Assembly (NCBI GenBank): GCA_947304355.1
Contig: CAMZAX010000022.1
Coordinates: 1-37,637, forward strand
Reading direction: 5' to 3'
DNA from: an uncultured Selenomonadales bacterium
GTDB lineage: Bacteria > Bacillota > Negativicutes > Selenomonadales > Selenomonadaceae
DNA length: 37,637 bases
Positions 728-37,526 of this stretch are shown here, one piece after another. A program made the position numbers and the translations under genes. Below the pieces are notes generated by a model. It saw only the letters and a program-made list of their open reading frames with translations. It did no database searches and was not told the DNA's origin. Positions within the stretch are counted from its first letter, which is position 1. Every line of letters starts with the position of its first letter.

Positions 728-3700
728 TCATTGAAATTTTTTGGCGGCTTGTGACATTTGTAATGTGTTCGCGTCGATGATTTGATTCAGCGCGTCGAAG
801 AACAAAGCCTCGCCGTCGATTTTAACGTCCGGATTCAGCTCGGCGAAAACAGCCGCGTCGTCGAAGGCAAGATTTATGAAAGTCTCAACGGCGTCCCAAT
901 TGGTGTCTTCGGCGCAGAAAACGGATGGGAAATTTTCAAACCACTTGACGCCCGAAGAAATTTTCGTGTCCAAAGACTTGAACGCAAGGACGGGCGTTCG
1001 TGTGATAAACGCGAAAATCACGCCGTGAAGGCTGTCCGTGACGACAAGCTTGCTTTTGCGAATCTTCATCAGCGCGGCGCGAATTTTTTCGTCGCGATTG
1101 TTCGCCGTGACCGTTTCGTCAATGACGGTGTCGACGAACGCGAACGGGATATTCGCGTCGGCAAAAGACTCCCGCAGGACTTGAATCTTGGCGTCGTCAC
1201 GAACTTTGTCGCCGCGCAGGACGAACAGCACGCCCTCACGCGCAACGTCGACGTCGTCCAACATGCCGTGCAAGGCGATTGCGGCGTCGGGCAAAAGGTA
1301 GTTGTTCACTCGCGGGAAAAATTCTTGTGCGAAGTCGAAGCTCACTTCGTCGCGCGTCATAAGGTGCAAATCGTCATGCGCGTTGTAAATCTGTTGACTG
1401 CGTGCCAATTCCCTGCGCCCGGCGTCGTCGTCGGTGAAGTCAATGCTTTGCGGGAAGAGGACAATTTTGTTGTCGGGAAATGTTTCAATCAGCGCGCGAC
1501 GAAGTTTCTCTTCATTGAGCCGCCTGTTGCCGAGAGTGCCGCCGTGCATGAAAATCAAATCGTCGCGGCGAACGTTCTTTGCAAAGTCGAGTCTGCCTGT
1601 CAAATCGTCGTAAGGAACTTCGATAACTTCACGGTCGGGGAAATAATCTTTCAAGACGCGCAATTCACCCGCAACGGTCGCCAGGTCGCCGTGCGTCGGC
1701 GTGCCGAGCAAAAAAATTCGTTTGTCGGCGCGTTGTTCGCCTTTAAGCCGTTGAATTTCCTCACGAAGACTTTGCACCTGTTGTTCAAGGATTTTGCCTT
1801 GACAAAAGAAAATGTGATAGCCGTTGAACAGATTGCTGACGAAGGGCGCGTATTCGCCGAAAAGTTTTTCAAAGGCAACGTTGGCGGCGGCGGACGCTTC
1901 CGGGCTCAAAGTCAAATCCGCGTAATACCCCAGCGTCTGCGCGGACACGAATCGCCCGATATACGCGTTCACGATTTCAGCGCACCATTGTTCGTAACGT
2001 TCAAAGTGCGGAATGCTGTCGAGCAAAATTTTTATGTAAGCCGCGCCGCGTGCAACGGACGGAATGCATTTTGCAAGATGTTCGGCGTTGCGCGTAAACA
2101 TGACCGAATCTTTGTGCCTGCGATAGACGTAGAGCGTCGCGGGCAGGACGTAATAACGGCGGGCGCAAAAAAGCAACGCGAAATGAAAAATATCGTCCTC
2201 CGTAACGATCGGCAGGAATTCGATACCGTTTTCTTGCAGGAAGTCGCGGCGACAAAAGCACATCCACACCATTGAATAAGTCCGATATTTCGTCCAATGC
2301 TCGTCCAATCTGTAAAGCAAATCCGTCGACAGAAAACCTTCGCGGGTGTAGTCGTCGCCGCCCGCCTCCAAATCTTCCGGACGAACGGGCGCGGGCTCGT
2401 CTTGATACAACGCATACCAGCCCGTCGCGTGAACGACATCGGCACCGGTTTTTTCGGCGGTGTTGAAAAATTTTTCAAGCGCGTCGGGCAAAAGCAAATC
2501 GTCGCTGTCGACGAAGTAAATGTATTTGCCGCGCGCATGTTTCATGCCGGTGTTGCGTGCAGCTCCTTGGCAAAGATTTTTTTCGTGGCGAAGGATTTTG
2601 ATTTTGTCGTTGTCGCCGTAGAGTTTTCGACAAAGCGCGAAACTGTCGTCGGGCGACGCGTCGTCCACCAAAATGATTTCAAAGTCTTGGAAGGTCTGCG
2701 CCAAAATGCTGTCGACGCATTGCTTTATGTAACGCTCTGCCTTGTAGACGGGCACGATAATTGAAACGCTCGGATTGCTCACGATATCGCCTCCAAAAAT
2801 TTTTTCTGAACTAATGAACTTCAATTCGTCGGCGATGCTTTTGAAAACGAATTCGCTCGCCGTCATGCCGTTGCGCTTGTAATAGTTCAGGTATTCGTCG
2901 AAAATTTTACGTCGGGCGTCTTTCAGCGGGTCGTTGCCTTCGATAAATATTTTTTGTATCGCGGCGGAGATTGCGCTCAAGTTGCGCCCGTCGACGCGAT
3001 AAGACGCGGACAGAATTTTTTCGCCAAGCTCGTTAAATTTTTGCGTGTCGCGCGTCAAATAAATCATGGGCTTGTCGACGTATTGATACTCGGCGGTAAA
3101 GGAGCCGCTGTCGTGAATCATGCCGTCGCTCGTGGCGAACAACGCTTGATAGTAAGCACCGGTGTAAACCTGCGCGTTGGGCAAATCGTTCCACGCCTTC
3201 AAATACGCCTCGAAAGCCGCCGCCGAAGGGAAGACTCCGGCTTTTACCGCCGAAAACAGCAGATTCGGGTGCGGCTTGACGACCCAAGACGTTTCGGGGT
3301 GCGCCCGCGCGAATTCGTACATGAATTGATAATTCCATTGGAAGGTTGAAAATCTTATGCCGTCGCCTATTGACCAATGCGGAGCCCAAATAATTTTCTT
3401 CGCATCGGGGCGCGTCATCTTCCAATCGAAATGAAAATCATGATTCGCGTCAAAGAATACGTCCAATCGCGGATAACCGCTGTACAACCCGCGCGGCATT
3501 CCTGTACGACATTTTATTTTAAAAAGTTCCAGTTGCGGAATCGACTCGAAAAATATTTTCCAAGGTACGCGCATAATTTTACTTTCGGAAATATCATATT
3601 TTGTTATGACAAAGCCATACATTATGAATGCCAAAAGCGTCCGTGCAGTCAGTTGCGACAACTGAAAAGCGTCGGGCATGACTTCAAAGTAAGGCGTCAA

Positions 3701-5224
3701 GAAAAGCAACACGTCCTGCGCTGGGACGGCGGCATTTATTTCCGCGACGGGTACGACGTTTAAACCGCGCGACTTGAATTGCTCGACGCCGTGCAGAAAA
3801 TCTTGCTTGACGTTTTCCTTGTCTCCTTGGTCGGTGCGCAGGCAGAGAAAAACCGTCGGCTCAAATTTTTCGTCGCGGGCAAAATAATTGTACAGCTCGT
3901 CGCCGCACCACATGGACGAATCATACAAAACGAAACCGACTTTGATTTTGTCTTTGCCGCGAATCATCTGCGCAGACATATCGAAGACGCGTGCCATCAG
4001 CGCGTTGTATTTGTCCTTCGGCAACAAAATCGACAGCAGGTTAAAATATTCATAGTTCATATCGCAGAAAGTTTCTTTTGGCAAAAGTTTTTGTTCGTGC
4101 AAGTGCAAACTCAGGAGAGTGCTCGCCGCCGCCGCGCCGCGCAAATTCAAATGTGCCGTGTTGTAAAAACAATCGTAACCCAGCTTGAGGTCGAACAAGT
4201 CCGCGCAGGTGAAGTCATAACTTTCCTGCAACCGGCGAATCGCCGAACGGAAACTCGTCAAAAGATTTTCGTCGAAGTTTTTGCGAATGATGGGCGCAAA
4301 CGGGAAAATCACGCCGACGGGTTTCGCGCCGTGTTGCAGGCATAGCTTGATGTAATCTTCAAGTATGCTTAAATTTTTTTCAATGACTTGCGGGCGCAGT
4401 TTCTTGGTCACGTTGTCCAATTCGGCTTCCCAATCAATCAAAGTCTTCGCGGGAATGTCGCCGTTAAGAAAGTTTTTTGTCCGGTTGAAGTTTAAATCCG
4501 CATTCTCCGCCTTCACGTCAGTGAAAAGATTTTTAACGTTATCGCCGACCAAATTTTTCAGCAGGCGATCATGAACAGTCTCTTCCTTGACGTTGAGAGC
4601 AAGCATGTATTGCAAGTTCCGCGAGCAGACGGAAAAAGATTCGGCGTTGCTGTAGCGCAGGGAATAGGGCGTCAGTCCGATTAGGACGAATTTAATCGTG
4701 CCGGGCTTGACGTGTTCAAAGACGTATTTCGCCGTAAGATAACCCTGCCGCAAATCCTGATTGGAGCCGGCAAGATTGACGCCTCGACCGAAACTGTGGG
4801 GAATGTAGCGCAAATCCAGCCCGACTTCGGTATAGGAAATGCCCGTCGCGAAAAAGTCCGCGCCGTGTTCTTCGACGTAACGCAGATTCGCAATCCACTC
4901 GACACTTACCATCAATTCAAAGTTGACGATATTGTCTTGAGGCACGCCGCTTTTCGTCAAAAATTTTTTGAACTTCCACAGGTCGCCGAAGTTGCCCGCG
5001 TGACCGCTTATCAGCCAGAGAAAATTTTTGTCGGCGTCAATGAGCCTGTGCACGTACGCAAAAGAAACGAGCGGAATCGAACGTTCGCCGATATTTAAAA
5101 CTTGACCGTTGCCGCCTTCGACAACTATCGCGACGAGATTTGCGACGGCGAAGTTCAAACTCCGAACAGATATTTCAAGAGCCGCTTTGTTCAAGACGAC
5201 AAGCACAACGTTTGCTTTTTCCAA
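728..5224 (-). CDS. Giant multi-domain polysaccharide transferase (unknown N-domain + CDP-glycerol transferase-like + GT2 + pyruvyl transferase)
   Basis: This 1498-residue protein has four parts. Residues ~1-410 have no function I recognise. Residues ~425-790 resemble CDP-glycerol:poly-glycerophosphate transferases (KVGFVLYDSSMWCGDELYN, VVKPHPNLL, IHDSGSFTAEYQY). Residues ~815-1130 are a GT2 glycosyltransferase (VSIIVPVYKAERYI, ILVDDASPDDS, DxD-type YFVDSDDLL). A short coiled coil near 1140-1165 leads to a polysaccharide pyruvyl transferase-like domain at ~1168-1498 (FMHGGTLGN, VTDSLHGVIFA). Together they suggest building and decorating a surface polymer at the cytoplasmic face of the membrane; this is inference. 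The start is TTG at 5222-5224 with GGAGG and a 7-base gap; an ATG 5 bases upstream is out of frame. Codon 815 is a GTG with its own GGAGG in the same frame, suggesting fusion of two genes or internal initiation. Confidence 0.85.
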   Translation of the reverse strand: MEKANVVLVVLNKAALEISVRSLNFAVANLVAIVVEGGNGQVLNIGERSIPLVSFAYVHRLIDADKNFLWLISGHAGNFGDLWKFKKFLTKSGVPQDNIVNFELMVSVEWIANLRYVEEHGADFFATGISYTEVGLDLRYIPHSFGRGVNLAGSNQDLRQGYLTAKYVFEHVKPGTIKFVLIGLTPYSLRYSNAESFSVCSRNLQYMLALNVKEETVHDRLLKNLVGDNVKNLFTDVKAENADLNFNRTKNFLNGDIPAKTLIDWEAELDNVTKKLRPQVIEKNLSILEDYIKLCLQHGAKPVGVIFPFAPIIRKNFDENLLTSFRSAIRRLQESYDFTCADLFDLKLGYDCFYNTAHLNLRGAAAASTLLSLHLHEQKLLPKETFCDMNYEYFNLLSILLPKDKYNALMARVFDMSAQMIRGKDKIKVGFVLYDSSMWCGDELYNYFARDEKFEPTVFLCLRTDQGDKENVKQDFLHGVEQFKSRGLNVVPVAEINAAVPAQDVLLFLTPYFEVMPDAFQLSQLTARTLLAFIMYGFVITKYDISESKIMRVPWKIFFESIPQLELFKIKCRTGMPRGLYSGYPRLDVFFDANHDFHFDWKMTRPDAKKIIWAPHWSIGDGIRFSTFQWNYQFMYEFARAHPETSWVVKPHPNLLFSAVKAGVFPSAAAFEAYLKAWNDLPNAQVYTGAYYQALFATSDGMIHDSGSFTAEYQYVDKPMIYLTRDTQKFNELGEKILSASYRVDGRNLSAISAAIQKIFIEGNDPLKDARRKIFDEYLNYYKRNGMTASEFVFKSIADELKFISSEKIFGGDIVSNPSVSIIVPVYKAERYIKQCVDSILAQTFQDFEIILVDDASPDDSFALCRKLYGDNDKIKILRHEKNLCQGAARNTGMKHARGKYIYFVDSDDLLLPDALEKFFNTAEKTGADVVHATGWYALYQDEPAPVRPEDLEAGGDDYTREGFLSTDLLYRLDEHWTKYRTYSMVWMCFCRRDFLQENGIEFLPIVTEDDIFHFALLFCARRYYVLPATLYVYRRHKDSVMFTRNAEHLAKCIPSVARGAAYIKILLDSIPHFERYEQWCAEIVNAYIGRFVSAQTLGYYADLTLSPEASAAANVAFEKLFGEYAPFVSNLFNGYHIFFCQGKILEQQVQSLREEIQRLKGEQRADKRIFLLGTPTHGDLATVAGELRVLKDYFPDREVIEVPYDDLTGRLDFAKNVRRDDLIFMHGGTLGNRRLNEEKLRRALIETFPDNKIVLFPQSIDFTDDDAGRRELARSQQIYNAHDDLHLMTRDEVSFDFAQEFFPRVNNYLLPDAAIALHGMLDDVDVAREGVLFVLRGDKVRDDAKIQVLRESFADANIPFAFVDTVIDETVTANNRDEKIRAALMKIRKSKLVVTDSLHGVIFAFITRTPVLAFKSLDTKISSGVKWFENFPSVFCAEDTNWDAVETFINLAFDDAAVFAELNPDVKIDGEALFFDALNQIIDANTLQMSQAAKKFQ
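2780..2794 (-). promoter_or_regulatory. Internal ribosome binding site and in-frame GTG before the GT2 domain
   Basis: Within the giant gene, GGAGG (2790-2794, complement) is followed after 7 bases by GTG (2780-2782) and then codons for SNPSVSIIVPVYK, the usual N-terminus of a GT2 enzyme. The spacing equals that of the gene's own start. The GTG is in frame (codon 815), so a separate GT2-pyruvyltransferase polypeptide could be made. Confidence 0.6.
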
Positions 5225-12476: not shown

Positions 12477-13685
12477 TTGACGGAAAACGTATTCGACACA
12501 CTCACGGAGCGCGGCTTTATCGCGCAGTGCACCGACGCCGACGAAGTAAAAAAATTGCTCGGTGAAAAAAAAGTCACGTTCTATATAGGCTTCGACCCGA
12601 CGGCGGACAGCTTGCACGCGGGACACTTTATCGCGCTCATGGCAATGGCTCATATGCAACGCGCGGGACACCGCCCGATTTGCCTTGTCGGCGGCGGCAC
12701 CGGCACTATCGGCGACCCCTCCGGACGCAGCGACTTGCGCAAGGTCATGACGGACGAAGTTATTCACCACAACTGCGAATGTTTCAAAAAGCAGATGGCG
12801 CGCTTTATCGACTTCAGCGACGGCAAGGCTTTAATGGTCAACAACGGTGACTGGCTCCGCAAGCTCGGCTACATAGACCTGCTCCGCGAAGTCGGCGCGC
12901 ATTTCACGGTTAATCGAATGCTCGCCGCCGAATGTTACAAGCAACGCTGGGACAAAGGCTTGACGTTTCTTGAATTCAACTACATGGTCATGCAGGCTTA
13001 CGACTTTTACAAGCTCAACGGCGATTACGATTGCGTCTTGCAAATGGGCGGCGACGATCAGTGGTCGAATATCATTGCGGGCGTCGAACTCACGCGGCGC
13101 AAGACCGGACGCGCGGCTTACGGCTTGACGAACAAACTTTTGCTCAAGTCCGACGGCTCCAAGATGGGCAAGACTGCCAGCGGCGCGCTCTGGCTCGACG
13201 AAAATAAAGTTTCGCCCTACGACTTCTATCAGTATTGGCGCAACGTCGACGACGCGGACGTTAAGACTTGCCTGAGCTTGCTGACGTTCGTGCCAATGGA
13301 CGAAGTCAACCGCCTGTCGAACTTGAAAGACGCCGCCATTAACGAGGCGAAAAAAGTTTTGGCTTACGAAGTCACGAAACTCGTCCACGGCGAAGCTGCC
13401 GCCAAGCAGGCGCAACAATCCGCCGCAGAAATTTTTGCGGGACAAGGCTCCGACAACATGCCGACCGTCGAAGTCACCGACGCTGTTGGCAAGAAACTGC
13501 TTGACGTGCTCGCCGCCGCGCAGATTATCGATTCCAAATCGGAAGGACGCAGACTTATCGCGCAGAGCGGCTTGACACTCAACGACGCCAAGGTTTCCGA
13601 CGCCGATTACGTCTTGCAAGCCGACGACTTCCCTGCCGTCATTCGCAAGGGCAAAAAGAAATTCTTCAAGGTTGTGAACGCATGA
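12477..13685 (+). CDS. tyrS: Tyrosyl-tRNA synthetase
   Basis: About 402 residues, the usual size. This class I synthetase charges tRNA-Tyr. The HIGH-type motif appears as [11 protein letters not shown] (HAGH), and the KMSKS-type motif as [11 protein letters not shown], the KMGKT variant seen in one TyrRS branch. DQWSNIIAG binds tyrosine. The C-terminal ~70 residues form an S4-like RNA-binding domain ([15 protein letters not shown]). GGAGG at 12464-12468 overlaps an in-frame ATG at 12462, so the real start is the TTG at 12477 (8-base gap) or 12474. The stop overlaps the next start (ATGA), implying coupled translation of the hydrolase gene. Confidence 0.96.
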
Positions 13686-14332
13686 CTAAGGGACAAGGGA
13701 CACGGGACAAGGGACAAGTTCATTGCGCATTACGCATTGCGCATTACGTATTATTTTCAGCGGCGGTGATTGTTATGACTTTGATGACGACGCCCGCGCA
13801 GGCGACCGATTCGCGCGTCGAGGCGGCTGTTCAATGGGCGATTGAAATTGCCAACGACCCGATTCACGGCTACTCGCAGGGCGCGGAAAACGCCACGCCG
13901 TCACGCCCCTATACCGGCTCGCGCGAAGGTCCCGACTACGATTGCGCGTCGCTGGTCTATCACGCCTTCCAACAGGCGGGCTTCGACATAATCGGCGCGT
14001 GGCACAAAAATCCCCAATACACGGCGCGCTACAACGGCAGACAATATTCGGGCGACGCCGACACCATTTGGGACGACTTGCAGACTCTCGGCGGTTGGCA
14101 AAAATTTTCATGGGCTGAAGTCGCCGATAACCTTCAGCGCGGCGACATTCTTTGCCGCCCGCAATTTCACGTTGCGATTTATAAGGGCGACGGCTTGACG
14201 GTGGAGGCTCGCGGCGTCAACAATCCGACGGGGCTCGGACGCTACGAGACGGGCGATCAGGGCGGCGAAATTGATTTCTATGACGCTTACGGGCGCGGCT
14301 GGACGGAAGTTTATCGCTATGTCGGAAATTAA
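13682..14332 (+). CDS. Secreted NlpC/P60-like peptidoglycan hydrolase (Amidase_5-like)
   Basis: A 216-residue protein with an N-terminal signal peptide: hydrophobic [14 protein letters not shown] then TTPAQA before the mature TDSRVEAAV. The mature part resembles phage-type peptidoglycan hydrolases: [18 protein letters not shown], the Cys nucleophile in [18 protein letters not shown], and a downstream His in [11 protein letters not shown]. It likely cleaves peptide bonds in the wall outside the membrane. The ATG overlaps the tyrS stop. The first ~22 codons are made of two heptanucleotide tandem repeats, so the n-region of the signal peptide is repeat-encoded. An alternative ATG (13774-13776) after a GGCGGTGAT site would remove most of the signal peptide. 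Confidence 0.85.
13690..13753 (+). repeat. Two adjacent 7-bp tandem arrays (GGGACAA and ATTGCGC/ATTACGC)
   Basis: Four GGGACA(A/C) units at 13690-13717 are followed by four ATT(G/A)CG(C/T) units at 13722-13749. They lie inside the start of the hydrolase coding region directly after tyrS. Both families occur elsewhere in the window between genes. Confidence 0.9.
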
Positions 14333-26385: not shown

Positions 26386-27849
26386 TCATTCGACTTCCGT
26401 GCCGATACCCGAATTCGTGAACAGCTCCAGGATAATCGAATGCTCCAGTCGTCCGTCGATGATGTAAGCCTTGTTCGTGCCGCGTTCAATCGCCCGCAAG
26501 CACGCTTCGACTTTGGGAATCATGCCGCCCGAAATTACGCCGCTCTTGATGAATTCGCGCGCCTCGACAGATTTGAGCGTCGAAATGAAACTTTGCTTGT
26601 CGGCGAAATTTTTGTAGACGCCTTCCGTATCGGTGAGCAGCAAAAGTTTTTCAGCCTTAAGCGCGCCCGCAATGTCCGCCGCAACGTAATCGGCGTTGAT
26701 GTTGTAGCTCGCGCCGTCTTCGCCCACGCCAATCGGCGCAATGACGGGGACGTAGCCCTTGCCGATTAAATCGTTGACGATTTGGATGTTGACTTGCTTC
26801 GCCTTGCCGACGTAGCCGATGTCGACTTTGGTTTTCTCGCCGCCGTCGTAGACCGTCGCCAATTTTTTTTCGGCGCGAATCAAATCGGCGTCCTTGCCGC
26901 TCAAGCCGACAGCCCGCAACCCGCGACGATTCAACAGCGTGACGATTTCCGAATTGATTTTGCCGTCAAGCACCATCTCCGCGATTTCAACGGTTTCTTC
27001 GTCCGTGACGCGCAGGCCGCTGACGAACGAACTTTCCTTGCCGAGTTTCTTGAGGAAACCGGTAATTTCGGGGCCGCCGCCGTGCACGATTACGACGTTG
27101 ATGCCGACGTACTTCATGAGCGCAACATCCTGCATGACGGACGCCTTGAGCGCGTCGTTGACCATTGCGTTGCCGCCGTACTTTATGACAATCGTCTTGC
27201 CGTGGAACTCTTGAATGTAGGGCAACGCCTCGACGAGGACAGCCGCCCTGTCGCTTGCGGTGAAGTCTTTGGTTTCGACAATCTGCGCGGCAAGGCGTGA
27301 AGTCGTCGAAGTCAAGCTTGCGTCGCCCGAAATGTTCAACGCGCCGGCGTCGGCAGTCTTGCTTAAGTCGTCCTTGAGCACGGTTAAAACTTCGGCTTGC
27401 GGCGCGGCGGAGTAGCGTGACGCGTCCGGATTTGCAACGTCGTTTGAAATGTTGAGCTTGCCGGCGTCATCAGCAACCTTGCCGTCTTTAAGCGGTGTAA
27501 GAACGTCGTCGCGCATTTCGGCGGCGGGCGTCGCGTCGCTTGAAATGTTCAAGTTGCCCGCGTCGGCAGTCTTGCTTAAATCGTCTTTTAGCACGGTTAA
27601 AATTTCTTCGTGCGGCTCGGCGGCGTAGCGTGAGGCGTCCAAGCTTGCAACGTCGTTTGAAATGTTGAGCTTGCCGGCGTCGTCGGTAACCTTGCCGTCT
27701 TTGAGCGGCGTCAAAATTTCTTCGCGGCGTTGATGTTGCTTGTCGAGTTCGGCTTTGAGTTCCGCCAAAATATTTTCGTGCGATTCGGCGGGCAGAAACT
27801 TTTTGAGAATCTGCGCCGCCAAGTCCAGTTGTAAAGTTTCGTCAATCAT
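26386..27849 (-). CDS. argB: Acetylglutamate kinase ArgB with a repeated N-terminal extension
   Basis: A 487-residue protein whose C-terminal ~300 residues are a complete N-acetylglutamate kinase (second step of arginine synthesis): ALPYIQEFHGKTIVIKYGGNAM, VIVHGGGPEI, YNINADYVAADIA, SGGMIPKVEAC. Normal ArgB proteins are about 290-300 residues. Residues ~1-43 are a helical, charged segment. Residues 44-181 (27307-27720) consist of four related units, A-B-A-B, with motif LT(P/V)LKD...DAGxLNIS; the A+B pair repeats with a 71-residue period and near-identical DNA. I recognise no function for this part. ATG at 27847-27849 has GGAGG 6 bases upstream, and there is no internal ribosome binding site before the kinase. 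It overlaps the end of recT by 8 bases. Confidence 0.92.
   Translation of the reverse strand: MIDETLQLDLAAQILKKFLPAESHENILAELKAELDKQHQRREEILTPLKDGKVTDDAGKLNISNDVASLDASRYAAEPHEEILTVLKDDLSKTADAGNLNISSDATPAAEMRDDVLTPLKDGKVADDAGKLNISNDVANPDASRYSAAPQAEVLTVLKDDLSKTADAGALNISGDASLTSTTSRLAAQIVETKDFTASDRAAVLVEALPYIQEFHGKTIVIKYGGNAMVNDALKASVMQDVALMKYVGINVVIVHGGGPEITGFLKKLGKESSFVSGLRVTDEETVEIAEMVLDGKINSEIVTLLNRRGLRAVGLSGKDADLIRAEKKLATVYDGGEKTKVDIGYVGKAKQVNIQIVNDLIGKGYVPVIAPIGVGEDGASYNINADYVAADIAGALKAEKLLLLTDTEGVYKNFADKQSFISTLKSVEAREFIKSGVISGGMIPKVEACLRAIERGTNKAYIIDGRLEHSIILELFTNSGIGTEVE
27307..27720 (-). repeat. Coding tandem repeat, 213-bp period (two copies), inside argB
   Basis: Codons 44-114 and 115-181 of argB are direct copies of a 71-codon unit, each made of a 38-residue and a 33-residue related half. 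DNA identity between copies is high, including long perfect stretches around the GKLNISNDV segment, suggesting recent duplication. Confidence 0.9.
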
Positions 27850-28678
27850 GTTGTTCCTCCGAATCGTTTTGGTCAGGCTCGTCGGGCGCGTCGGGCTCGT
27901 CAAGTGCTTCAATGTCGGGCATGTCAATCACTTCGTTGAAGGGCACGATTTTTTCTTCGCCGTGTTCGTTGTCGACGTAACGGAAGCCGTCCTCGGTGAC
28001 GACCGCCTGATCGGCCTGCAACGCCGTCGCCAACGCCGCACTTTGCTGGTCAATGCTTATGACGCCGAAATTGCTCAGCAGTTTCTTGAGGACGGTTTTC
28101 TTAGCCATCGCGTCGAAATTCGTCGACCAGACCGAAGACTTTCTGCCCGAACGAATGTCGTAAGCGTAGGACTGCGAATATTTTTCGGCGTGCGCCTGCA
28201 GTTCCTCGACCGTCATGTAAAGCGACTTGTAAAAGCCGTTGACGAGCTCCATGTAGGCGACGTAGCCGACAATCGTATCGGAAATTTTTTCGCCGCGAAT
28301 AATTTCGCCCGTCACGAAGTCAATATCGGCGATTTGTCCTTCGCGAATCGCGCCCGAATTCAGCGTGCGATATTGTCCGCTGCGCATTGCAAGCTGAACG
28401 TAACCGCGCCAACCCATTTGGAATTGGGCAGTTCCTTTGTAAGGCACAATGTGCGCGAAACTCAGGCTTGGGTTAATCGGCAACTTGAGCGCGGCGGCGA
28501 TTCCTGCGGCGGCAAGTATCGAATGCGGGTCACACTCGCGGAGCTTTTTGTTGCTGTTGAAGATTGCAAGTATCGACGAGATGAATGACGGCGCGGCTTT
28601 GTCAAGGAGTTCCTCGAAACGCCGCTTGATGCCCGCCGAATTCAAAAGCTGTTGCAATGTCGGATTAGGTTGGCTCAC
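27842..28678 (-). CDS. recT: RecT-family single-strand annealing protein
   Basis: A 278-residue phage-type recombinase that anneals complementary single strands. Family marks are LAAAGIAAALKLPINPSLSFAHIVPY, FQMGWRGYVQLAMRSGQYRTL, the VGYVAYMELVNGF segment and VWSTNFDAMAKKTVLKKLL. The C-terminal tail is very acidic (EALDEPDAPDEPDQNDSEE), as in other RecT proteins where it may bind partners. The start is GTG at 28676-28678 with AGGA upstream. No exonuclease (RecE/YqaJ), single-strand binding protein or other phage gene is adjacent. It is followed by argB with an 8-base overlap, so translation is probably coupled. Confidence 0.93.
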   Translation of the reverse strand: MSQPNPTLQQLLNSAGIKRRFEELLDKAAPSFISSILAIFNSNKKLRECDPHSILAAAGIAAALKLPINPSLSFAHIVPYKGTAQFQMGWRGYVQLAMRSGQYRTLNSGAIREGQIADIDFVTGEIIRGEKISDTIVGYVAYMELVNGFYKSLYMTVEELQAHAEKYSQSYAYDIRSGRKSSVWSTNFDAMAKKTVLKKLLSNFGVISIDQQSAALATALQADQAVVTEDGFRYVDNEHGEEKIVPFNEVIDMPDIEALDEPDAPDEPDQNDSEEQHD

Positions 28679-33761: not shown

Positions 33762-33784
33762 GGATTCGCCTCCTTTTTAGGAAC

Positions 33785-33833
33785 TTGTCCCTTGTCCCTT
33801 GTCCCTTGTCCCTTGTCCCTTGTCCCTTATTCC
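33785..33833. repeat. TTGTCCC heptad array, six units plus one degenerate
   Basis: Six perfect TTGTCCC units (33785-33826) and one TTATTCC (33827-33833). Relative to phoH the sense strand reads GGGACAA, an SD-like purine-rich sequence, placed between the predicted phoH promoter and its ribosome binding site. The same unit occurs near 13690. Confidence 0.95.
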
Positions 33834-35815: not shown

Positions 35816-35846
35816 ATTCTTTTAGCATTGACTGCAGGTGATTGAC

Positions 35847-37526
35847 ATGAAAAAATTTTTTGTCGCGGTGTTGGTAATTTTGTTGAGTACCTTTGCCGTC
35901 AATGCTGCCGTCGAGACTTACGAGGGCGTCGACGAATATTACGTTTTGGGCGCAGTGGAAAACATCAACGTCGCCCGCGAACGAGCCCGCGAACGCGCAA
36001 TCCGCGACGCACGCGAAAAAGCCGGCGTTTACATTCACACCGTGTCAAAGGTCGTCAACATGAAGCTTGTCGACGACGAAATCATTTCCGTGGCGAGCGG
36101 CGTCCTGCGTGTCGTCGACACCGCTTACGAAGTTATTCAGCTTACCGACATGGACGGCTACCTGATTCGCGCCACCGTCAAGGCAGACATCGACACCGGC
36201 GACCTTGACAGATTCTTGGAAAAAGACGCCGAGGAACTTGCCAACATCGTCGCCAAAGATAAAGTCATTCGTCAGCAAGAGCACCGGCAAGACCAACGTA
36301 TCGAGACGCTCAAGCAGGAGTACCGTCAAGCCGAGACGCCTGAACAAAAGGAAATCATCGCCGCGCAGATTGTCGTCGAGGACAAAATTTTTCTGTCGAA
36401 CGTGAAACTGCGCGAGGGCAATCGGTATCGCGACGAGGGCGACCATAAGCAGGCGGAGAAACTTTTCACCGAGGCGATTGAACTCAACCCCGACAACGCG
36501 TTGGCTTGGCACAACCGCGCTTGGGCTTACATCGACCTGAAACGTTATCAGCAGGCAATTAACGACTTCAACAAGGCGTCCGCGCTCAACCCGAATTGGG
36601 ATCTGCCGTACTTCGGGCGCGGCTGGATTTACAATCTGCGCAAGGAATATGCGTCGGCGATTGCCGAATATGACAAGGCGATTGCACTCAATCCGAAATA
36701 TCCCAACAGCTGGAACAATCGCGGCGCGGCGAAGTCTTGGCTCAATCAAATGCGCGAGGCGATTGCCGATTACGACAAAGCCATTGAACTCAAGCCCAAT
36801 TACGTCAAGGCTTACGAGAATCGCGGCAAGGCTTACGGTGCTTTGGGCGACAACGCGCACGCCGCCGAAGATTTGAATCGTGCCGCCAAAATCGACAGCT
36901 CGAACAAGGGTGCCGACAAAATCATCGAAGAGTCCGAAGCTCTCGTCAAGCGCGGCAACTACACCGAGGCGTTGAATCTTTTGAATAAAGCCGCCGAACT
37001 TTTCCCCGACAATCAATTCGTCTTCGTCAATCGCGGCAACCTTTACAACGACAACTTCCGCGACTTCGACAAGGCGATTGCCGACTACAACAAGACGATT
37101 GCGCTTAACGACAAGTTCTCGTGGCCGTATCACAACCGCGCTATTGCTTTGGGGCGGCTCAAGCGTTGGGACGAAGCCATTGCCGATTACGGGCGCGCCA
37201 TTGAACTCAATCCGACTTTCGCCGCCGCTTACAACGGACGCGCTTGGGCTTACTGTCAAATCGGAAATTTCGAGGCGGCACTCGTCGACGCCGACAAAGC
37301 CTTGGAACTCATGCCCAATGAAGCGAATTACTTCGACACCCGCGCCACCGCTTACGCCAGCTTGGGGCGTTTCGACGACGCGCTTGCCGACATGAACAAG
37401 GCGATTAAACTTTCGCCCGAAGGTTGGCTGTACCACGGGCGCGGCAAAATTTACAAGCTCATGGGCGACGAAGCTAAAGCCAAATCCGATTTCGACAAAG
37501 CAAAGCAACTGGGCTACACCGAATAA
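35847..37526 (+). CDS. Secreted TPR protein with an LPP20/FlgT-like N-terminal domain
   Basis: A 559-residue protein with a signal peptide (MKKFFVAVLVILLSTFAVNA). Residues ~25-130 resemble the LPP20/FlgT N-terminal fold: NVARERARERAIRDAREKAG, then VVNMKLVDDEIISVASGVL and GYLIRATVKADID. A charged helical linker with HRQDQRIETLKQEYRQAE follows. From about residue 190 to the end there are about ten tetratricopeptide repeats (AEKLFTEAIELNPDNALAWHN-type), in two blocks separated near residue 355 by a KGADKIIEESEALVK segment. TPRs mediate protein contacts, so an exported scaffold is likely. The ATG at 35847-35849 has AGGTG upstream; an ATG three codons earlier is less likely. Confidence 0.85.
   Translation: MKKFFVAVLVILLSTFAVNAAVETYEGVDEYYVLGAVENINVARERARERAIRDAREKAGVYIHTVSKVVNMKLVDDEIISVASGVLRVVDTAYEVIQLTDMDGYLIRATVKADIDTGDLDRFLEKDAEELANIVAKDKVIRQQEHRQDQRIETLKQEYRQAETPEQKEIIAAQIVVEDKIFLSNVKLREGNRYRDEGDHKQAEKLFTEAIELNPDNALAWHNRAWAYIDLKRYQQAINDFNKASALNPNWDLPYFGRGWIYNLRKEYASAIAEYDKAIALNPKYPNSWNNRGAAKSWLNQMREAIADYDKAIELKPNYVKAYENRGKAYGALGDNAHAAEDLNRAAKIDSSNKGADKIIEESEALVKRGNYTEALNLLNKAAELFPDNQFVFVNRGNLYNDNFRDFDKAIADYNKTIALNDKFSWPYHNRAIALGRLKRWDEAIADYGRAIELNPTFAAAYNGRAWAYCQIGNFEAALVDADKALELMPNEANYFDTRATAYASLGRFDDALADMNKAIKLSPEGWLYHGRGKIYKLMGDEAKAKSDFDKAKQLGYTE

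Follow-up and report, generated by a model that had tools for sequence, protein, structure and literature searches.

An N-acetylglutamate kinase with a helical N-terminal module and tandem repeats in one genus of Selenomonadaceae

Introduction

What is a core enzyme of arginine synthesis doing with a long, repeat-bearing segment in front of its catalytic domain? N-acetylglutamate kinase (NAGK), the product of argB, is generally the controlling step in arginine synthesis (PMC3329491, excerpt). The question arises from a single argB gene in a stretch of 37,637 nucleotides (the window, meaning the whole of the DNA that was analysed) from an uncultured Selenomonadales bacterium, whose genome amounts to 2.4 Mb in 66 contigs and is 88% complete. 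The protein is a known enzyme in a newly described variant with an N-terminal extension. Among the titles and abstract openings returned by a literature search, none concerned an extended or repeat-bearing NAGK of this kind, and a term search of the main text of the Quinella genome paper (PMC9585023) found neither arginine nor acetylglutamate.

The kinase and its extension

The kinase part of the window ArgB matches the NCBIfam argB profile TIGR00761 over its whole length (positions 1-231 of 231) with 258.1 bits against a cut-off of 151.3, and Pfam AA_kinase (PF00696) with 174 bits. The motifs KYGG, HGGGP, NINAD and GGMIPK are all present, invariant in 32 aligned sequences and nearly so in 34. 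By these signatures the protein is an ordinary, typical NAGK with predicted activity; argC and argJ both occur in the same genome, on a contig other than that of argB. A first-pass annotation, made from the sequence alone, had described an intact kinase domain with a helical segment and a duplicated unit in frame ahead of it, and the single frame of 487 residues, the TIGR00761 match and an AlphaFold2 model all agree with this description (Table 1).

The same annotation put the extension at about 180 residues. An extra segment does exist, but it is longer: the canonical NAGK N-helix, which marks the start of the part conserved in short relatives, aligns at residues 196-218, so that 195 residues of the window protein are additional. 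Of the in-frame starts 5′ of the kinase core, only the ATG at 27849 has a Shine-Dalgarno (SD) match of at least five bases. GGAGG precedes the start in 30 of the 32 genus rows listed, in long and short forms alike, and is often missing in the deeper clade.

Residues 1-181 gave nothing at E ≤ 1 in Pfam. The best match in NCBIfam, an OmpA-family lipoprotein, reached E 0.0019 with 17.8 bits against a cut-off of 300, the best in PHROGs had E 0.025, and a PDB search gave at best E 0.35 for the repeats and 0.08 for the module. In none of these four collections did a match to the extension pass a cut-off or attain clear significance, in line with the earlier remark that no ArgB with such a domain is known. 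The extension also had no match at E ≤ 1 among plasmids and phages. A mobile or viral origin was rejected: the phage and plasmid searches returned no relative of the extension, and viral contigs yielded none either, as none of the 7 stretches there that fitted a pattern was confirmed.

Table 1. Features of argB and its upstream neighbour, in positions of the window.
Feature	Position	Strand	Basis
argB coding sequence, 487 aa with N-terminal extension	26386..27849	-	single open frame, SD-preceded ATG, TIGR00761, Pfam AA_kinase
Shine-Dalgarno GGAGG before the long start	27856..27860	-	SD match
N-terminal helical module, residues 1-41, genus-specific	27727..27849	-	profile match and predicted helices
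71-residue unit 1, residues 42-112, two mini-repeats	27514..27726	-	repeat finding, TRF
71-residue unit 2, residues 113-183, two mini-repeats	27301..27513	-	repeat finding, TRF
Junction between repeats and kinase, residues 184-195, SRLAAQIVETKD	27265..27300	-	alignment
Canonical NAGK N-helix, residues 196-218, FTASDRAAVLVEALPYIQEFHGK	27196..27264	-	alignment, predicted helix 198-215
Amino acid kinase domain, residues 218-465	26455..27198	-	Pfam PF00696, E 4e-51
RecT gene directly upstream of argB	27842..28678	-	Pfam PF03837

The 71-residue repeat

Two direct copies at a spacing of 213 nt are 85% identical over 194 nt, and TRF reports positions 27320-27708 with a period of 213, 86% matches and a score of 610, the best of ten rows in the window (the next scores 90). 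A comparison of 69 codons gives 81% nucleotide identity between the copies. The motif LT(P/V)LKD...DAG(K/N/A)LNIS, previously noted as fourfold, does occur four times in the protein, with two mini-repeats in each 71-residue unit. At 81-85% identity, the 213-bp copies had been called near-identical too generously, and the duplication can hardly be termed recent, as a second species has the same two-unit layout.

This second species, genome G010 (locus L032, CAMJMR010000004.1), is the nearest lineage with repeats, and its extension is 76% identical in amino acids to that of the window over residues 1-181, with the same module and two units. Within a genome the repeat copies are 91% (G010) or 81% (window) identical in nucleotides; between these species the figure is 71-79%. 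A layout common to both species, with copies alike within each genome, suggests that the repeats have been homogenised, or duplicated repeatedly at one place. Because another species encodes the identical layout, the frameshift or assembly error that the first-pass annotation had considered is unlikely.

The repeats resemble part of the segment that precedes them. Mini-repeat 2, HEEILTVLKDDLSK, shares 8 of 14 residues with helix 2 of the N-terminal module, HENILAELKAELDK (shuffle p 0.0002), with a score of 37 against 5 for the next best stretch of the module. Mini-repeat 4 shares 5 of 14 (p 0.0014), and mini-repeats 1 and 3, of the A type, share 5 and 3 of 14 (p 0.013 and 0.020); in G010, both B-type repeats are identical to helix 2 at 7 of 14 positions and both A-type repeats at 4. 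The registers in these comparisons, and in those of the L058 helix below, were set by eye, so the p values are somewhat optimistic. What the first-pass annotation lacked is that the window repeats elaborate, locally, an N-terminal module found across the genus. The 71-residue repeat is one outcome of a wider process rather than a separate domain.

A module found across one genus

A kinase search found ArgB in 61 of the 66 genomes of the genus. Profile A2, built on the first 39 residues, matches 22 of the 66 at E < 1e-11, and a wider profile that includes the deeper clade (A6) matches 34 at E < 1e-6, with the next match at E 0.017. Compared with the kinase search, all 34 places adjoin an ArgB kinase on the same contig. 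As many of the A6 matches are rows from which the profile was built, the informative part is that nothing else falls below E 0.01 in the 66 genomes. The narrower A2 placed two matches at E 0.004 outside ArgB (G040:C10, a different protein, and G104:C105), neither of which was repeated with A6. The first 20 or so residues of the module are recognisable across both main clades, several lineages of the genus are without it, and the divergent ArgB N-termini of G035, G013, G019, G032 and G038 form helix-like extensions with weak or no profile match.

Among 119 genomes of the class outside the genus, A6 gave no match below E 0.025, and its four weaker matches, in three of these genomes, are none of them at ArgB. 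An ArgB match is present in 109 of the 119, with open frames of 217-344 aa except one of 866 aa. This frame, in G156 (L190), was set aside as an alternative-frame artefact, the long frame crossing argC-argJ into argB. The longest of the other frames could hold one short module by their length, yet the profile finds none.

Among the public contigs of the same genus that were found by sequence, some bear the record names Quinella sp. and Selenomonadaceae bacterium, and many come from rumens and other ruminant gut compartments. From these record names we infer that the genus is Quinella-type Selenomonadaceae.

Gain, loss and multiplication

KYGG is preceded by 60 or more residues in 37 of 61 distinct kinase rows and by fewer in 16, the other 8 having no assigned start; two of the 16 come from outside the genus, which leaves 14 genus rows with an assigned start and no tail. 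Starts were set by SD match and overridden by hand at 22 loci; 16 of these loci belong to the 61 rows, and two of the 16 (L147 and L155) were set to no start assigned. From 28 to 221 residues precede KYGG among the genus rows. The protein tree needs nine changes of gain or loss, four of them forced by well-supported branches, and a DNA tree of 34 rows needs four, two of them forced. In the protein tree, weakly supported branches separate G010 from the window; the DNA tree joins them at 91/84, under the tool's own mark for a branch to count as shown. Some short forms keep the first residues of the module, such as L039, which starts MIDEKLQ-AFSASDRA against MIDETLQ- in long forms, and this looks like an in-frame deletion.

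Tandem duplications were found in 7 of the 37 extensions (8,751 nt) as against none of the 61 kinase domains (52,671 nt), and when each of the 37 extensions was codon-shuffled 20 times, the same detector found none in the 740 resulting sequences. Of the seven periods, six (213, 210, 132, 132, 36 and 33) are divisible by three; the seventh, in L009, is 7. The tandems of 213 and 210 probably go back to one shared event, as probably do the two of 132. A further, weaker duplication of 108 nt in L019 is under the length rule of the detector. The whole module is duplicated in L010/L016 and in L019, a helix-1-like segment occurs three times in L058 (p 0.0004-0.0006 among copies and 0.005-0.022 against the module), and L013 and L018 have duplicated the linker rather than a helix. 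Repeated loss (or gain) of the module and its multiplication on several occasions are thus supported.

Heptanucleotide arrays occur both in another argB of the genus and in the window. The ArgB linker of L009 (genome G049) contains an array of the AATGCG type, read as NAKCEMRN, so short repeats have entered the argB coding region in another species. The window has such arrays at 33784-33828, 13688-13753 and 126-157 (GGGACAA/CTTGTCC, CATTACG, TAATGCG). The pair at 13688-13753 lies within the first codons of an open reading frame (13682-14332) with a weak NlpC/P60-like match, and slippage there would shift the frame.

Selection on the extension

Between the window and G010, the extension has a dN of 0.153 and a dS of 0.686 (dN/dS 0.22 over 192 codons), with differences by codon position of 33/21/67. 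The kinase has a dN of 0.042 and a dS of 0.519 (dN/dS 0.08 over 293 codons), and the first 44 codons a dN of 0.097 and a dS of 0.288. The extension is coding and under purifying selection, less constrained than the kinase, and the selection for the frame proposed earlier is evident in its ratio of 0.22. Over the first 36 codons, nine of the 14 closest of 171 pairs have a dN/dS below 0.4, four have 0.43, 0.43, 0.55 and 0.64, and one has no synonymous change. Differences by codon position summed over all 171 pairs, which are not independent, are 1946/1241/2591, a weaker bias in which saturation is likely.

These figures bear on two rival explanations. An error of annotation or assembly, with the true start at the N-helix or with a misassembled repeat, is very improbable; the named relatives are nearly all metagenome assemblies, which speaks for it, but the SD match stands at the long start only, the tandem periods are mostly in frame, the architecture is identical in G010 and the divergence is biased towards synonymous changes. 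That the extension is real and protein-coding is well supported. A tail without a specific role, a tolerated and slippage-prone N-terminus growing and shrinking under weak constraint, has more in its favour but is unlikely. Its length is very variable, duplications and losses recur, the linkers are of low complexity (including the heptanucleotide-repeat stretch of L009), disorder-promoting residues make up 76% of the window linker against 62% of its kinase, and the module reaches a dN/dS as high as 0.64 between close pairs. This explanation fits poorly with the ratio of 0.22 and its codon-position pattern, with the first 20 or so residues that both main clades retain, and with the multiplication of helix-like sequence in four lineages, even if it was the linker in L013 and L018.

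Predicted structure

The AlphaFold2 output was used for single-chain secondary structure and confidence. For the window ArgB (34 rows), helices are predicted at residues 4-18 and 21-50, with pLDDT block means of 62-81. Residues 59-192 are mostly below a pLDDT of 50, with short helices at 80-92 in unit 1, at 110-121 across the boundary of units 1 and 2, and at 151-163 in unit 2; the N-helix follows at 198-215, and the kinase is modelled with high confidence. For L143, from the deep clade (33 rows), helices at 4-19, 26-32 and 37-52 (pLDDT about 58-68) precede a low-confidence stretch at 52-74, the N-helix and the kinase. The low-confidence linker is probably flexible, and its low values may also be an effect of a shallow alignment. 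Membrane targeting by an amphipathic helix found no support, the hydrophobic moment of the window sequence being 0.35 against a shuffle mean of 0.39.

A short N-terminal helix plus a linker is a usual layout of peptides that direct enzymes into bacterial microcompartments. The tail shares this layout, yet there is next to no likelihood that it is an encapsulation peptide, as the shell family PF00936 is, within the completeness of the assemblies, over the cut-off in none of the 66 genus genomes, the match in G038 remaining below it (20.4 of 24.5 bits). Among 14 control genomes, two (E. coli and Synechococcus) were over the cut-off.

Genomic context

The RecT gene upstream of argB overlaps its start by 8 nt in another frame, and is the sole phage-type recombination gene among the 23 window open reading frames scanned against Pfam. 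RecT lies 5′ of argB in at least 17 of the 55 kinase groups of the genus (rows lumped by 120 kinase residues, which merges some loci of unequal extension length, such as L017 with L019, and shows an extension of 0 where the start is unassigned, as in L074 and L157). An origin of the extension by fusion with RecT was rejected, because the module-bearing argB genes of L054, L044, L045 and L057 have no RecT in the 3,000 nt upstream and because RecT is read in another frame. The order argJ-RecT-argB in L135 is consistent with an insertion of RecT between argJ and argB. G010 has RecT and a phosphatase gene upstream of argB, as in the window; on the 3′ side it has an argD-like gene, identified by eye, whereas the window has a converging pheT.

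In other genera of the class, argJ lies directly 5′ of argB in 30 of 30 loci (L161-L189, the best-scoring 29 of 109 matched genomes, with L190 added). In the genus, argJ is within 20 nt of argB in 5 of the 55 kinase groups, and four of these five (L136, L141, L150 and L155) have no extension. A docking tail could have replaced an assembly based on the operon once argB had left the order argC-argJ-argB, and the argC-argJ of the window genome do lie on another contig. This is an improbable explanation, however, given that L149 has an extension of 106 residues with argJ 18 nt upstream and that several displaced argB genes have no extension. Three of the four extensionless, argJ-adjacent rows moreover share one clade, so that the association is not independent, and for some groups the upstream sequence amounts to only 48-150 nt.

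Other features of the locus and its genome may be recorded here. In the window's genome, an open reading frame containing GIYKITCKKNGKFYIGQSTDIKRRFSQH (L194, 3923-4987), GIY-YIG nuclease-like by eye, follows argJ and stands where other genera have argB. Within the window, positions 728-5224 encode a 1498-aa open reading frame with glycerophosphotransferase-like, glycosyltransferase 2 and polysaccharide pyruvyl transferase domains, and the protein of 562 aa encoded at 35838-37526 is rich in TPR repeats.

Possible roles of the module

The first-pass annotation had suggested protein binding, oligomerisation or arginine response as candidate roles. The account that we prefer, with about even confidence, is that of an arginine-type NAGK bearing a genus-specific docking module on a flexible linker, multivalent in the window lineage. 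One genus has added a helical N-terminal module to an ordinary NAGK, joined to it by a probably flexible linker. The module would dock onto either a partner protein or ArgB itself outside the normal ring. In the window lineage, four mini-repeats like helix 2 of the module are strung along the linker, and multiplying the module in this way might raise avidity and reach. Several findings count against docking: selection holds the tail less tightly than the kinase, the module itself reaches a dN/dS of 0.43-0.64 in four of those 13 among the closest pairs that have synonymous changes, its amphipathicity is no higher than that of shuffles, and its pLDDT is moderate, with low confidence in the repeats. 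The tail is absent from 14 genus rows with an assigned start, and is thus dispensable at least in those lineages.

A bolder version of the docking account is more tentative. Helix 2, the whole module (in two lineages) and the helix-1-like segment were multiplied independently, which prompts the idea that the tail acts as a multivalent, evolvable array of docking sites whose copy number might tune the assembly of ArgB with itself or with other arginine enzymes. If true, a core biosynthetic enzyme of one genus would carry a rapidly evolving valency dial. A tail lost and multiplied while the enzyme changes little offers a natural series for study (no tail, one module, two modules, and a module with four mini-repeats), by which one could test how short helical appendages originate and whether their copy number tunes assembly or feedback.

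The module might instead act on the oligomer or on arginine feedback, as an extra interlacing helix that binds the ring by the N-helix and lines the arginine site, a reading that is possible but doubtful. In arginine-sensitive NAGKs, the helix of the N-terminal extension interlaces dimers, and arginine binds beside that helix (PMC3329491, excerpt); the module is attached upstream of it. Both the module and the canonical N-helix contain an AxILxxxLP-like stretch, the module may have arisen by duplication of the N-helix, and the junction SRLAAQIVETKD of the window protein resembles the module by eye. The similarity of module and N-helix is marginal (column-shuffle p 0.044 in the genus and 0.064 in other genera), however, and a linker of about 140 residues separates the module from the ring in the window.

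In cyanobacteria and plants, the nitrogen regulator PII lifts the arginine inhibition of NAGK. That the tail is a docking site for PII, whose binding relieves NAGK of this inhibition (PMC3329491, excerpt), is most unlikely. PII genes are present in 39 of the 66 genus genomes, but in 20 of the 34 with the module and 19 of the 32 others, which is no association, and G010, with a full repeat extension, has no PII match, the genomes being incomplete.

Comparison with known N-acetylglutamate kinases

The kinases of other Selenomonadaceae and Negativicutes are 76-78% identical to that of the window in the best-matching genera, but are without the module by profile search, and the open frames of ArgB measure 296-315 aa in the 19 genomes of the same family, from other genera, that have a match. 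Since relatives that have no extension keep an otherwise normal enzyme sequence, the extension is probably not needed for kinase catalysis.

The PDB entries closest to the window kinase are 2buf (E 4e-87), 2bty (1e-86) and 2jj4 (1e-83). The hexameric, arginine-sensitive NAGKs 2BUF, 2BTY and 2JJ4/2V5H, from Pseudomonas aeruginosa, Thermotoga maritima and a cyanobacterium, respectively, have the kinase domain and the canonical N-helix in common with the window ArgB, but none of the three matches extends into its residues 1-185. Like the arginine-sensitive hexameric enzymes, the window protein has an N-terminal helix before the kinase core, both by alignment and by prediction. The N-terminal extensions described for arginine-sensitive NAGKs measure 19-38 residues (PMC3329491, excerpt), whereas the window ArgB has a further 195.

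In yeast, NAGK takes part in a metabolon of NAGS and NAGK (PMC3329491, excerpt). The yeast enzyme with its DUF619 domain is likewise a NAGK bearing an added segment. In the window ArgB, AA_kinase is the only Pfam family over its cut-off, and no acetyltransferase-like domain is found at the C-terminus. The DUF619 addition is C-terminal and has an acetyltransferase fold, whereas that of the window ArgB is N-terminal, helical and repeat-bearing.
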